A DNA stretch of 64,000 bases from Comamonadaceae bacterium (lineage in GTDB: Bacteria; Pseudomonadota; Gammaproteobacteria; Burkholderiales; Burkholderiaceae_C): contig CANGEE010000001.1 in the NCBI GenBank assembly GCA_947452635.1, forward strand, positions 1-64,000, read 5' to 3'. Shown here piece by piece: positions 40,459-45,969 of the stretch. The first letter of the stretch is position 1. Each line of letters opens with the position of its first letter. Under the pieces are notes generated by a model. The model was not told the origin of the DNA and made no database searches. It saw only the letters and a program-made list of their open reading frames with translations. A program made the translations under genes and the position numbers.

Positions 40459-41307
40459 TCAAGCCTGAGGGACCAAATGAAATTCGAAATTCACTTCTGA
40501 AAATGGCGTCGTGATGCCATAGCGCTGGGCCACTTCAGGGTTCTCGCAGGGCACCAAAGGCACGATCAAGCCTTCGCGCACGCCAAACACCGTGTCGTTG
40601 TCCAGGTAGTCAGAGTCGGCCGGGAACAACTCGGTCACCAGACCCACGAAACTGGGCGCGCTGACAATCACATGAAAGTGCGCCGGACGCCAGATGCTGC
40701 GCTGGCTCGCCGCCAGCAGCGCGCCCACAGGCCCGTCGGTGGGCACGGTGTAGGGGTGAGGGCGCAGGGTGAGCAGGTTGAAGCTGCCGTCGGCATCGCA
40801 GCGGATTTTGCAGCGCAGGTTGTGCGGGTCTTGCGTGGGGTCTTGCGCCGGGTACAAGCCGTTGTCGGCGTTTTGCCAAAAGTCGAGTTCGGCATGCGCA
40901 ATGGCTTGGCCCTGCACATCCAAAACACGGCCATGCAACCATGTTTTCTGCCCGGGCTGATCGCCGGTCAAATCCACGCCATTCGGGTGCAACACAGAGT
41001 CATGGTTGTGAAAAGGCCCCAAGACGCTGCTGGCAGTGCCGCCTTCGGGCTGGGAGACCACATCCACCATGGATGAAATACCCAAAATATCGGACAACAA
41101 GCTGAACTCGTTGCGTTCGGCATCGGTGATCGCCGCGCTTTGCGTGAGGAACTCTAGACCACGCAACCACTCCTCTTTGGTCAGTTGGGATTCGGCGACA
41201 AAAGCATGCAGGTGCTTGACCAACAGGGCCATGACCTGACCCAGCCGGGGGTCGGTGGCCTGTGAGAAGCTACGCATGGCCGCTTGAGTGACTAAAGGCA
41301 GGGGCAT
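40459..41307 (-). CDS. Intradiol ring-cleavage dioxygenase (hydroxyquinol/catechol 1,2-dioxygenase-like)
   Basis: GPFHNHDSV, LHGRVLDVQGQAIAHAELDFWQNADNGLY, RPAHFHVIVSAPSF. Confidence 0.93.
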   Translation of the reverse strand: MPLPLVTQAAMRSFSQATDPRLGQVMALLVKHLHAFVAESQLTKEEWLRGLEFLTQSAAITDAERNEFSLLSDILGISSMVDVVSQPEGGTASSVLGPFHNHDSVLHPNGVDLTGDQPGQKTWLHGRVLDVQGQAIAHAELDFWQNADNGLYPAQDPTQDPHNLRCKIRCDADGSFNLLTLRPHPYTVPTDGPVGALLAASQRSIWRPAHFHVIVSAPSFVGLVTELFPADSDYLDNDTVFGVREGLIVPLVPCENPEVAQRYGITTPFSEVNFEFHLVPQA

Positions 41308-41397: not shown

Positions 41398-42627
41398 TCA
41401 CTCGCTGACATTGCAGTCCCGGCGCAGCAAAGCCAGCGCATCGTGCAATTTGTAGTCGCGGTCACTGACCAGGGTGTCTTGTGCGTCTTCCACAAAATGC
41501 TGCCACACCTGCACATAGTCGCTTTGGTGTTGCACGGGCGCATGGTCGTGGATGAAGGCAGTGGCCAAATCCGTTTGCCAACCTGATTTGCGGATTTTGC
41601 GCACCAAGGCGGCCGCCGATTTTTCGGTCAACAAAGTTTTGGGGGCGCTGCCTGCGGCGATGCACAAAAACAAGGTGAGCAAGGAGCCGTCGTCGCTGTG
41701 GCCTTGGGTGAGTTTGTTCCAGGCGGCGGAAGCCTCGCGGTCAAAATGGTCAATCTCGGCCAGGCTGTCTTCGATCCAAAAGTAGCGGCCCACAAAGGCG
41801 GGTGTTTGCTGAAACAGCTTGGCCACGGGAATGGCCGGGTCTTGGATTTTGGGTAAATCCAGGATCAGGCTTTGGCGTACTTCTTCAACCGCAGCGTTGA
41901 ACGGTGGGGGCAGGTTTTGGGGCAGCGACAACTTCAGGGCTTGCTTGGAGGGCTTGCGCAAGGCGGCAATCAGGCTCTGGAACTTCACCCAATCGGGCAT
42001 GCCTTGCTGTTTGCCATGCAGCACCAGCAAGGCGGTGCGTATCACCGCGTCGGCGTCGGGGCCGGCGTCTTCCAAATCGTCTGCGTCCATGCCCATGGCG
42101 TCGGCCAACCACAGCGCAGCGTCGATGCGCTGCGCCACCTGCTGGCGCTTGGCCAGTTCGGTCTGGTAATCGCCCAAGCTGCACAACGACCATTTGGCCA
42201 ACTGCGCAATGTGTTTGTCGCTGAAGCCGCCGTGCTCGTTCATGCCAAAGTGGCTGTTTTGCGGCATGACGATCAAGGCCTTGAGCATGTCAGAGGCGGC
42301 TTTGGAGCGCGACATGAAGCTGTGGTCGCGCAGCAGCAAGGCGGCGCGGTGCAGATCGCCTGCGCTTTCAAGTTCCAGGTTCAGGCTCACCAGGTTGACG
42401 ATGCGGTCTTTGGCTTTTTCCAACTCGGGGCGCAAAAACTCGCTGCCAAAGTAGCGCGCGATTTGCACCATGCCTTTGGGCGCGTCGGTTTGAATCGCGT
42501 CCAGTTTTTCGGTCGAAATCAGGTTCTGCGCCAAACCGTAAGCCAGCGCTTTTTCGAAAAAAGCGCTGCGGTCAAACAGCGAGACGCTGTGCGTGTTGGG
42601 GCCTGAAGCGGCAGGAGTCGCAGTCAT
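41398..42627 (-). CDS. Conserved protein of unknown function (409 aa), last gene of J-domain operon
   Basis: Long ORF codirectional with and 12 nt from its upstream neighbour; no motif recognised. Confidence 0.8.
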   Translation of the reverse strand: MTATPAASGPNTHSVSLFDRSAFFEKALAYGLAQNLISTEKLDAIQTDAPKGMVQIARYFGSEFLRPELEKAKDRIVNLVSLNLELESAGDLHRAALLLRDHSFMSRSKAASDMLKALIVMPQNSHFGMNEHGGFSDKHIAQLAKWSLCSLGDYQTELAKRQQVAQRIDAALWLADAMGMDADDLEDAGPDADAVIRTALLVLHGKQQGMPDWVKFQSLIAALRKPSKQALKLSLPQNLPPPFNAAVEEVRQSLILDLPKIQDPAIPVAKLFQQTPAFVGRYFWIEDSLAEIDHFDREASAAWNKLTQGHSDDGSLLTLFLCIAAGSAPKTLLTEKSAAALVRKIRKSGWQTDLATAFIHDHAPVQHQSDYVQVWQHFVEDAQDTLVSDRDYKLHDALALLRRDCNVSE

Positions 42628-42639
42628 GAATCGGGTGTC

Positions 42640-43404
42640 TTAAATGGCCGACTCTTCATCCGGGTCCAGTGCGGCCTGGGTGATTTGGCCGCGGTCGGTG
42701 GCGCTGGTTTCGACTTTGCCATCGTCCTCGGCCGACTCTTCTTCTTCAGACAGGCCCAGGTCGTGGGCGCGCGCCTTGGCGCGCAGCACCAACAGCATTT
42801 CCACAAACAAGTCGGGGCACTGGTAGCGCAGGGTCCAGGCCATTTGCATCCAGTCCTGGTCGGCCACTTCGTCTGCGTCCAGCTTGGGTTTGACATAGGC
42901 CGAAGCCAGCAGGGCGGTTTCAGACAGCATGCGGCCATCGTCTTCCACCGCGTCAAACACGCCGGTCCAGGCAAAAGCTTCAATGCGGCTCCACTTTTCG
43001 GTGAAGTAATCGGCCAATGCCTCGGCCCCGCCTTCCAAGTCGCCAATCGCGGTCAAAAATTCCACCGGGTCCGCATCGTCACGGAAGATGATGGCGTTCA
43101 TCATGCCGCGCAAATGGGTGCGCGACAGGTCTTTGTACTGTTTCTCGATCACCACGGCGCGGGCAAACTGCTCGGGTGTGACCAAGAGGTTGATGACCGA
43201 TTCTTTGGAGTTGTCGTATTCGCGGATCACGGCCAGCATGTCTTTGGGCGGCAACTGCTCCAACACCACCATCAAGGCCTTGTCGCCTTGCTCGTCGGCC
43301 AACTCGACCAAAGCGGCCTCGGCCGCCACGATGTCGCCCGACGCGATCAGGCTTTGGGTTTTGGCAATCAGGGCCAGGGCGCTGCTGTGGTTGTCTTGTG
43401 TCAT
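42640..43404 (-). CDS. Conserved protein of unknown function (254 aa)
   Basis: ATG at 43404 two nt after upstream stop (alternative TTG at 43410); no motif recognised. Confidence 0.8.
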   Translation of the reverse strand: MTQDNHSSALALIAKTQSLIASGDIVAAEAALVELADEQGDKALMVVLEQLPPKDMLAVIREYDNSKESVINLLVTPEQFARAVVIEKQYKDLSRTHLRGMMNAIIFRDDADPVEFLTAIGDLEGGAEALADYFTEKWSRIEAFAWTGVFDAVEDDGRMLSETALLASAYVKPKLDADEVADQDWMQMAWTLRYQCPDLFVEMLLVLRAKARAHDLGLSEEEESAEDDGKVETSATDRGQITQAALDPDEESAI

Positions 43405-43406
43405 TT

Positions 43407-43982
43407 TCAATCTTTACGGTCAAAACCTTGTTCGGCCAGCCAGTCGTTGCCGGCCTCTTCGCGGCTGCGTGCGTCTTGGTCGTCGTCGTCTTCGATGCGC
43501 GCGCCGCCGTCTTCGTCTGTGGGCCGGTGCGCAGCTTCATCGTTTTCGGCCTCGTTGTCTTTCTCGGCTTCGGGTGGGCGGTTGGCGGCGCTCAGGGGCT
43601 TGGTGTGCATGTACTCCAAGGCGGCGGCTACGCTCATGAACCAATCACCCATAGGCTCTTGCAGGATTTGGTCGACGATGGGTTGCGCCCACGGTTCTAT
43701 TTTCAGCGAGTGCTTCAGCACGTTCCAACCCAGCAACTCGTCTTCGTGGCGGGTCAAAAACTGGTCCATCACGGCAGGGACTGTGAACTGGAAGGCTTGA
43801 TGCAAAACCACCGCCACCATCTCTGGGTTCAGGTCCATGATTTGCAGCAAAAACCCCAGCTCTTGACGCTTGTCGGCCAGCCGTTTGCGCAGCACATGGT
43901 GGCCATCTGAGTCAAAGCTCAGGTCGTCAAGTTCGGCTTGGTAAGCGCTGCGCAGGTCGAGGAAAAAAGTGGAAATATGCAT
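43407..43982 (-). CDS. Conserved protein of unknown function (191 aa) with acidic, probably disordered C-terminus
   Basis: C-terminal EAEKDNEAENDEAAHRPTDEDGGARIEDDDDQDA; tight spacing with neighbours. Confidence 0.8.
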   Translation of the reverse strand: MHISTFFLDLRSAYQAELDDLSFDSDGHHVLRKRLADKRQELGFLLQIMDLNPEMVAVVLHQAFQFTVPAVMDQFLTRHEDELLGWNVLKHSLKIEPWAQPIVDQILQEPMGDWFMSVAAALEYMHTKPLSAANRPPEAEKDNEAENDEAAHRPTDEDGGARIEDDDDQDARSREEAGNDWLAEQGFDRKD

Positions 43983-43993
43983 CAGTTCATTTC

Positions 43994-44350
43994 TCAGTGG
44001 GCTTGCGCGCGCAGCGGGGCAAAGTAGCTGGTCCAGATCTCGCGTGCGGTGTGCTGAGGGTCGTCCAGCAGGTTGCGACGCCGGTTGTCGTCATAGGCCT
44101 GGCGTTGGGTAGCGTCGGACAGAACTTCATAAGCCTCTTGCACTTGCCTAAAGCGGGCCGGGGCGTCCGGGGCGGTATTGCGGTCGGGGTGGTACTGGGA
44201 CGCTTTTTGGCGAAACGCTTTTTTGATGTCCGCCAAGCTGGCGTCACTGTGAAGCCCGAGGGCTGCGTAGTGTTCAGTGGGGTGTTCTGGCAAGCGCTGT
44301 GTGGGCTGCGCGTTTTGTCGCTCGGTCATTCGCGGTCTTTCAATCCGCAC
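43994..44350 (-). CDS. J-domain (DnaJ-like) protein
   Basis: HYAALGLHSDASLADIKKAFRQKASQYHPDRNT...FRQVQEAYEVLSDATQRQAYD with HPD motif. Confidence 0.93.
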   Translation of the reverse strand: MRIERPRMTERQNAQPTQRLPEHPTEHYAALGLHSDASLADIKKAFRQKASQYHPDRNTAPDAPARFRQVQEAYEVLSDATQRQAYDDNRRRNLLDDPQHTAREIWTSYFAPLRAQAH

Positions 44351-44354
44351 TATT

Positions 44355-45899
44355 TTAGTCGGCTTCGCCCCGCGAGACGGGGCGGCCCGAGCGAGCAGCC
44401 TTATCAGAGCCGGTCAATTGCAATACCCCGTCCTCCAGGCGACTCCAGCACAGGCTGAGCATGTCGGCCAGGTAGTTTTGATACACCCGCCAAGGTTTGC
44501 GATCGCCTTGCTGGGGCAGCAAGCCTGCGGCGCGCTGCACATAGCCGGATGAAAAATCAAAATAGGGCTGGGTTTGCACCTGCGGGTCTTTGCGCGGAAC
44601 GGCCTGTTGGTAGCCATGGGCTTGCATGTGTTTCAGCAAGCGACAAACATAATTGGCCGTTAAATCGGCTTTGAGCGTCCAGGAGGCATTGGTGTAGCCC
44701 ATGGCCATGAACACATTGGGCAGGTCGGACAACATCATGCCTTTGTAGGCCATGGCTTGGGCGGGGTTGAAGGCTTGGCCATCCAAGGTGAAGACAATGT
44801 CACCCAAGGCATTGAGCTGCAAGCCCGTGGCGCTGACGATGACGTCCGCATCCAGGTGTTGCCCGCTGCTCAGTTCCATGCCGGTGGGGGTGATGCGCGC
44901 GATGGTGTCGGTGACCACCGAGGCGCTTTGCTTGCGCAAGGCTTCAAACAAGTCCCCATTGGGCAACAAGCACACGCGCTGGTCCCAAGGGTTGTAGCGC
45001 GGCGTGAAGTGTTTGGCGGTGTCAAATTCAGGGCCCAGCTGCTGGGCCGCCAAGCCAATCATGTGGTGTTTGACTTTGTGCGGGTAACGCCGCGCCAGCC
45101 GGAAAAAATACATGCCCAGCCCGATGTTTTTCCAGCGCGTCAGGTGGTGGGCCCAGCGCTCTGGCAAAAAGCGCTGGAGTTTCAAGGCCAGCGCGTCTTC
45201 GGCGGGGCGCGTCACCATGTAAGTGGGTGAGCGTTGCAGCAGCGTCACGTGCGCCGCCGTGGCGGCCATGGCCGGCACCAGCGTGGCGGCTGTGGCACCG
45301 CTGCCAATCACCACCACCCGCTTGCCGCTGTAGTCAAGGTCTTGCGGCCAAAACTGGGGGTGCACCCAGGTGCCCTGAAAGGTGGACTGTCCTTCAAACG
45401 CGGGCTGGTGCGCCTGGGTGTAGCTGTAATAGCCGCTGCACAGGTACAAGAACCGGGTGCGCACGTGCTCTAGAGATCCATTGTCCAGCGACAAGGTGAC
45501 TTGCCAGCAGCATTGCGCCGATGACCAGTCGGCACGTTGCACTTTGCGGCCAAATTGAATCTGCGGTGTGATGCCAGTTTCATCTGCCGTGTTTTGGATG
45601 TAGCGCAGGATGGCCGGGCCGTCGGCAATCGCTTTGCGCTCAGTCCAGGGTTTGAACGCATAGCCCAAGGTGTGCATGTCGGAGTCTGAGCGCACACCGG
45701 GGTAACGAAACAGATCCCAGGTGCCGCCCAGCCGAGCCCGGGCTTCCACCAGCGTCCACCGTGTGTGCGGGCTTTGGGCTTGCAGATGCCGCGCCGCGCC
45801 GATGCCCGACAGGCCCGCGCCGACGATCAGCATCTCCGTGTCCAGGGTGTTTGTCGCTGGGCTGGTGCGTGGTGTGGCTGTGATGGGGGGGTGGGTCAT
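44355..45899 (-). CDS. Flavin-containing monooxygenase (NAD(P)/FAD-dependent)
   Basis: MLIVGAGLSGIGAARHL, VVVIGSGATAATLVPAMA, FxGxxxHxxxW-like FQGTWVHPQFW region. Confidence 0.92.
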   Translation of the reverse strand: MTHPPITATPRTSPATNTLDTEMLIVGAGLSGIGAARHLQAQSPHTRWTLVEARARLGGTWDLFRYPGVRSDSDMHTLGYAFKPWTERKAIADGPAILRYIQNTADETGITPQIQFGRKVQRADWSSAQCCWQVTLSLDNGSLEHVRTRFLYLCSGYYSYTQAHQPAFEGQSTFQGTWVHPQFWPQDLDYSGKRVVVIGSGATAATLVPAMAATAAHVTLLQRSPTYMVTRPAEDALALKLQRFLPERWAHHLTRWKNIGLGMYFFRLARRYPHKVKHHMIGLAAQQLGPEFDTAKHFTPRYNPWDQRVCLLPNGDLFEALRKQSASVVTDTIARITPTGMELSSGQHLDADVIVSATGLQLNALGDIVFTLDGQAFNPAQAMAYKGMMLSDLPNVFMAMGYTNASWTLKADLTANYVCRLLKHMQAHGYQQAVPRKDPQVQTQPYFDFSSGYVQRAAGLLPQQGDRKPWRVYQNYLADMLSLCWSRLEDGVLQLTGSDKAARSGRPVSRGEAD

Positions 45900-45969
45900 G
45901 GCAGTTCCTGAGGGGCATTGAACTTTACAGGACTTGGTGAGCCGGTGTCCGTTCTTGTGGCATCGCAAG

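Follow-up and report, generated by a model that had tools for sequence, protein, structure and literature searches.

Organization of the locus

The window analysed here is the whole stretch of 64,000 nucleotides (nt) at positions 1 to 64,000 of contig CANGEE010000001.1 (assembly GCA_947452635.1, a Comamonadaceae bacterium), and the subject of the analysis is a cluster of four codirectional minus-strand genes resembling the atcJABC operon. The open reading frames (43994-44350, 43407-43982, 42640-43404 and 41398-42627) encode products of 118, 191, 254 and 409 amino acids (aa) and are separated by gaps of 11, 2 and 12 nt. Coordinates and lengths were re-derived and agree with the tight arrangement reported in a preliminary description made from the sequence alone. 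No match was obtained in a Pfam scan for the 191-, 254- and 409-aa proteins, for which that description had also recognised no motif. The features are listed below, the first with its likelier start codon.

43994..44329 (-): atcJ-like gene, short class C J-domain protein (Pfam DnaJ, NCBIfam AtcJ, alignment with canonical AtcJ)
43407..43982 (-): atcA-like gene, 191 aa (profile-profile comparison to gammaproteobacterial AtcA, alignment of 40 relatives)
42640..43404 (-): atcB-like gene, 254 aa (profile-profile comparison to gammaproteobacterial AtcB, alignment, position)
41398..42627 (-): atcC-like gene, 409 aa (NCBIfam AtcC, profile-profile comparison to AtcC, AlphaFold2)

Homology to the atcJABC operon

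With high confidence, the four genes can be assigned as a divergent, betaproteobacterial atcJABC operon. This operon is known from Shewanella, Moritella and Aeromonas, and Shewanella cells depend on it to grow at 7 °C, with J, B and C required and A not (Maillot 2019, PMC6715715). The first lead was supplied by NCBIfam, through its AtcJ model (spelt 'ActJ' there) and the model 'cold adaptation protein AtcC'. The J protein matched the former (NF050028) over model positions 3-93 of 93 with 59.3 bits, under the curated cut-off of 150 bits, and by the equivalog rule of this model it is to be ranked as a divergent homologue. Residues 19-103 of the 409-aa protein matched the latter (NF047890) with an expectation value (E) of 5.4e-4 and 19.6 bits, under the curated cut-off of 370 bits.

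Canonical gammaproteobacterial operons for comparison were obtained from a draw on the order of a SeqA-bearing genome, in which the AtcC family was found in 38 of 296 genomes, 34 over the cut-off; the label Shewanella/Moritella/Aeromonas used for the canonical genomes was deduced from these scores over the AtcC cut-off. When 369 genomes were drawn from across the class, the AtcC family was matched in none but the window's own genome. In profile-profile comparisons gene 2 was paired with gammaproteobacterial AtcA (93.4%, E 2.4e-7) and gene 4 with AtcC (93.3%, E 2.6e-7, residues 20-173), the pairing of gene 3 with AtcB being weak (39%, E 3.2e-4, 96 columns); mismatched control pairs reached no more than 0.4% (0.39%, 0.07% and 0.18%). 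Homology to atcJABC is clear for genes 1, 2 and 4, and gene 3 is assigned by a weak score together with its position. The cluster can no longer be regarded as the undescribed system of the preliminary description, whose proposal of a dedicated co-chaperone module does fit.

The J-A-B-C order on one strand with short gaps is that of atcJABC, and reading frames and order are conserved in about 70 genomes, which excludes a chance arrangement. With the 254-aa protein as query, 73 loci were recovered from the bacterial genomes scanned, and the four genes are present in the same order and strand in every one of these whose contig is long enough. The same order, similar sizes and an acidic AtcA tail were also found in gammaproteobacterial genomes. 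The block therefore spans Comamonadaceae genera and gammaproteobacteria, and the synteny is not confined to close relatives, a restriction that would have counted against the preliminary description by its own terms.

Compared to S. oneidensis atcJABC (SO_1850, SO_1849, SO_1848 and SO_1846; PMC6715715), gene order and tight spacing are common, as are a short class C AtcJ with a P-x7-W extension, an acidic-tailed AtcA, an AtcB of about 250 aa, and AtcC. However, AtcC is about 110 residues longer here (409 aa, against 297 aa in Shewanella). Relative to Shewanella-type genomes, with which the AtcA and AtcB ends and the J protein were compared, AtcA ends in WLAEQGFDRKD where theirs has an acidic tail rich in tyrosine, AtcB ends in DEESAI instead of DDMFSFLD, and the J protein lacks the short insert present after HPD in canonical gammaproteobacterial AtcJ.

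Conservation of Atc in several environmental proteobacteria is mentioned, with Weber et al. 2023 (doi 10.1111/1462-2920.16478) cited as ref. 43, in one report (PMC10939069). The occurrence of Atc in betaproteobacteria as such is probably already known. The Weber study is said to name the PX7W motif and to report both beta- and gammaproteobacterial members. What may be new is the longer AtcC and, at the ends of AtcA and AtcB, peptides that are strictly conserved and specific to the lineage.

The J-domain protein

The product of the first gene gave a Pfam DnaJ match of 82 bits (E 3e-23) with the HPD motif intact, and ends about 30 residues past the J-domain, a stretch too short to hold Gly/Phe or zinc-finger regions; the earlier picture of a short J-domain protein devoid of both is borne out. 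The GTG at 44350 is probably not the true start, and the protein would count 111 aa from the ATG at 44329 rather than 118, since an in-frame TGA directly precedes the ATG aligned with 44329 in four close relatives (loci L010, L012, L014 and L079). Most relatives have J proteins of 91-100 aa.

The C-terminal extension of the J-domain contains NLLDDPQHTAREIWTSYF with a P-x7-W motif (PQHTAREIW, residues 91-99 of the 111-aa protein), and the corresponding extension of gammaproteobacterial AtcJ proteins is VIVTDPAAAMRELWDQFY. Both HPD and P-x7-W are kept in 72/72 Burkholderiales J proteins, and P-x7-W also in all six gammaproteobacterial proteins checked. In the alignment, P and W of the extension never vary in any of three groups, namely Burkholderiales, Shewanella/Moritella/Aeromonas-type genomes and a divergent third group of gammaproteobacteria.

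The AtcA-, AtcB- and AtcC-like proteins

The AtcA-like protein consists of an N-terminal part of about 128 aa, an acidic linker and the terminal peptide WLAEQGFDRKD. Its tail had been described as very acidic and of low complexity. The acidic linker is indeed there (24-52 residues, median 43% Asp/Glu), but the tail is not merely low-complexity, as it closes with the motif W-[LM]-x2-Q-G-F-[DE]-x-K-[DE] in 72/72 relatives. In the window, this conserved end after the variable linker lies at 43407-43475; gammaproteobacterial operons have another peptide.

Of the four proteins, the AtcB-like one varies least, with 71-94% identity between the loci recovered. Its C-terminal tail is acidic and disordered, and in the window the end DEESAI, behind an acidic variable linker, lies at 42640-42700. 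The form DEExAI is present in 73/73 relatives, and gammaproteobacterial AtcB ends in DDMFSFLD or nearly so. Placed after acidic linkers of variable sequence, the conserved ends of AtcA and AtcB resemble short linear docking motifs. The AlphaFold2 model of AtcB is helical and moderately confident (predicted local distance difference test, pLDDT, 74.8), with residues 222-251 below 50. In five family members (G733, G760, G789, G880 and G960) AtcB is clearly more divergent, scoring 335-353 bits where the rest score 420-500, which suggests that the family holds a second clade of Atc.

AtcC has 401-445 aa in complete relatives, a range that leaves out the 740-aa reading frame of locus L075, and 296-300 aa in canonical gammaproteobacterial operons. 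The L075 frame could reflect fusion to the adjacent gene or a misassembly; AtcC of its near twin L076 has 422 aa. The AlphaFold2 model of AtcC is all-alpha and confident (pLDDT 88.7). Foldseek comparison to the PDB gave no match at E <= 0.001 for either model, the best being E 0.44 for AtcB and E 1.1 for AtcC, both with a low template modelling score (TM-score), so that no function could be assigned on the basis of fold. When AtcB and AtcC profiles from each of the two lineages were searched against PDB sequences, only weak matches to unrelated proteins were returned, and these were judged to be due to chance.

Distribution of the operon

The carriers whose record titles name a genus are betaproteobacteria, among them Limnohabitans, Rhodoferax, Polaromonas, Curvibacter, Simplicispira, Giesbergeria, Hydrogenophaga and Aquabacterium. 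Distribution is patchy. Scored by AtcB, the operon is present in 4/60 genomes of the genus (a count that includes the genome of the window) and in 48/301 genomes (26/141 genera) of the family. A fifth conserved gene was sought, but among 39 diverse loci no other family was found close to the operon more than 6 times; as the neighbours also change, the conserved unit is that of the four genes.

Proposed function and alternative explanations

In Shewanella, AtcJ is a functional DnaK co-chaperone, its last 21 residues bind AtcC (peptide dissociation constant 80 nM) and AtcC binds AtcB; the AtcJ-DnaK, AtcJ-AtcC and AtcC-AtcB interactions and the operon transcript were shown in Shewanella only (PMC6715715). 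AtcB contacts RNA polymerase according to a meeting report (PMC7871303). In the genome studied here, DnaK is encoded next to DnaJ. Another Hsp70 adjoins a 177-aa J-domain match, the two being probably HscA-HscB.

In the most likely mechanism, the J-domain of AtcJ would engage DnaK via HPD and its C-terminal P-x7-W peptide would dock on AtcC, which would in turn bind AtcB. DnaK would thereby be brought to an AtcC-AtcB assembly, where AtcB, with AtcA as an accessory, may mark a client or site that needs DnaK for low-temperature growth, possibly RNA polymerase. This model is built on homology, gene order, motif conservation and the presence of DnaK in the genome, and the interactions and the cold role would carry over from Shewanella to the present organism. 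A cold-growth role in this lineage is reasonably probable, while RNA polymerase is a tentative and somewhat doubtful target. HscB-HscA-IscU is a dedicated J-protein/Hsp70/client system. It works in a like manner, with a class C J-protein encoded in an operon and devoted to a specific partner, but the present operon has no Hsp70 and no iron-sulfur (Fe-S) proteins, and there is no sequence relation outside the J-domain.

Several points weigh against the assignment to atcJABC and its cold role. The NCBIfam scores of AtcJ and AtcC are far under the curated equivalog cut-offs (59 vs 150 and 19.6 vs 370 bits), the AtcB pairing consists of a weak profile score plus position, the similarity of AtcC is confined to residues 20-173 of 409, and the canonical AtcB end is absent, with DEESAI in its place. 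Most sampled genus-mates are without the operon, so that life in this genus does not generally depend on it, and the cold role is extrapolated from Shewanella.

In one alternative, the operon is homologous to atcJABC but the DnaK-AtcJ-AtcC axis of Burkholderiales serves a client or stress other than growth in the cold. The terminal peptides of AtcA and AtcB, as candidate docking peptides, are strict within the Burkholderiales set and unlike those of the gammaproteobacterial operons, AtcC carries its extra residues, and the distribution is patchy. Moreover, the Shewanella operon itself is expressed alike from 7 to 37 °C, which may mean another role according to its authors (PMC6715715). However, the AtcJ docking motif is kept, and among the carriers are Polaromonas glacialis and numerous genomes from lakes and groundwater, fitting cold water. 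Such a change of job appears unlikely. More specifically, the recruiter and the AtcJ-AtcC docking peptide may have been kept while the different AtcA and AtcB ends and the larger AtcC aim the axis at another machine than that of Shewanella, which we consider quite unlikely.

A defence or mobile-element cargo operon using a J-domain protein is very improbable: the patchiness within the genus (4/60) and the change of neighbouring genes between loci would agree with it, but a neighbouring gene, whatever its kind, is never common to more than 6/39 loci, and the operon is present in 26/141 family genera sampled, although no search of a defence library was made and no empty site was inspected. Also very improbable is an unrelated four-gene operon with a J-domain protein and a convergent resemblance to Atc, since the sub-cut-off NCBIfam scores and the three proteins without a Pfam match are outweighed by three matches in the same order, mismatched controls near zero and the C-terminal P-x7-W extension common to AtcJ.

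Taken as a divergent atcJABC operon, the locus documents Atc in betaproteobacteria of fresh water and groundwater (Limnohabitans-like, Rhodoferax, Polaromonas, Simplicispira and Curvibacter) and provides a distant comparison set for the Shewanella system. The comparison exposes the constrained parts, i.e. P-x7-W in all lineages and the lineage-specific AtcA and AtcB terminal peptides as candidates for target binding; these invariant peptides are directly testable for the Atc target.

Neighbouring genes and a third Atc-like group

The upstream gene for a flavin-binding monooxygenase (44355-45968) and the downstream gene for an intradiol (catechol-type) dioxygenase (40459-41307) are common to the seven closest relatives only. 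The stop codon of the monooxygenase gene lies 4 nt before the GTG at 44350 and 25 nt before the likelier ATG. In the clade of the window, atcJ may be co-transcribed with the monooxygenase gene.

The third group consists of more divergent Atc-like operons in gammaproteobacterial genomes (L123 1744-4309, L124 1810-4322, L125 1473-3962, and L126). They encode J proteins of 86-88 aa with P-x7-W, AtcA of 137-153 aa, AtcB of 177-179 aa (from the first ATG) and AtcC of 306 aa, the latter being 17-18% identical to a canonical one. AtcB of this group still ends in DTDDMFAPL.
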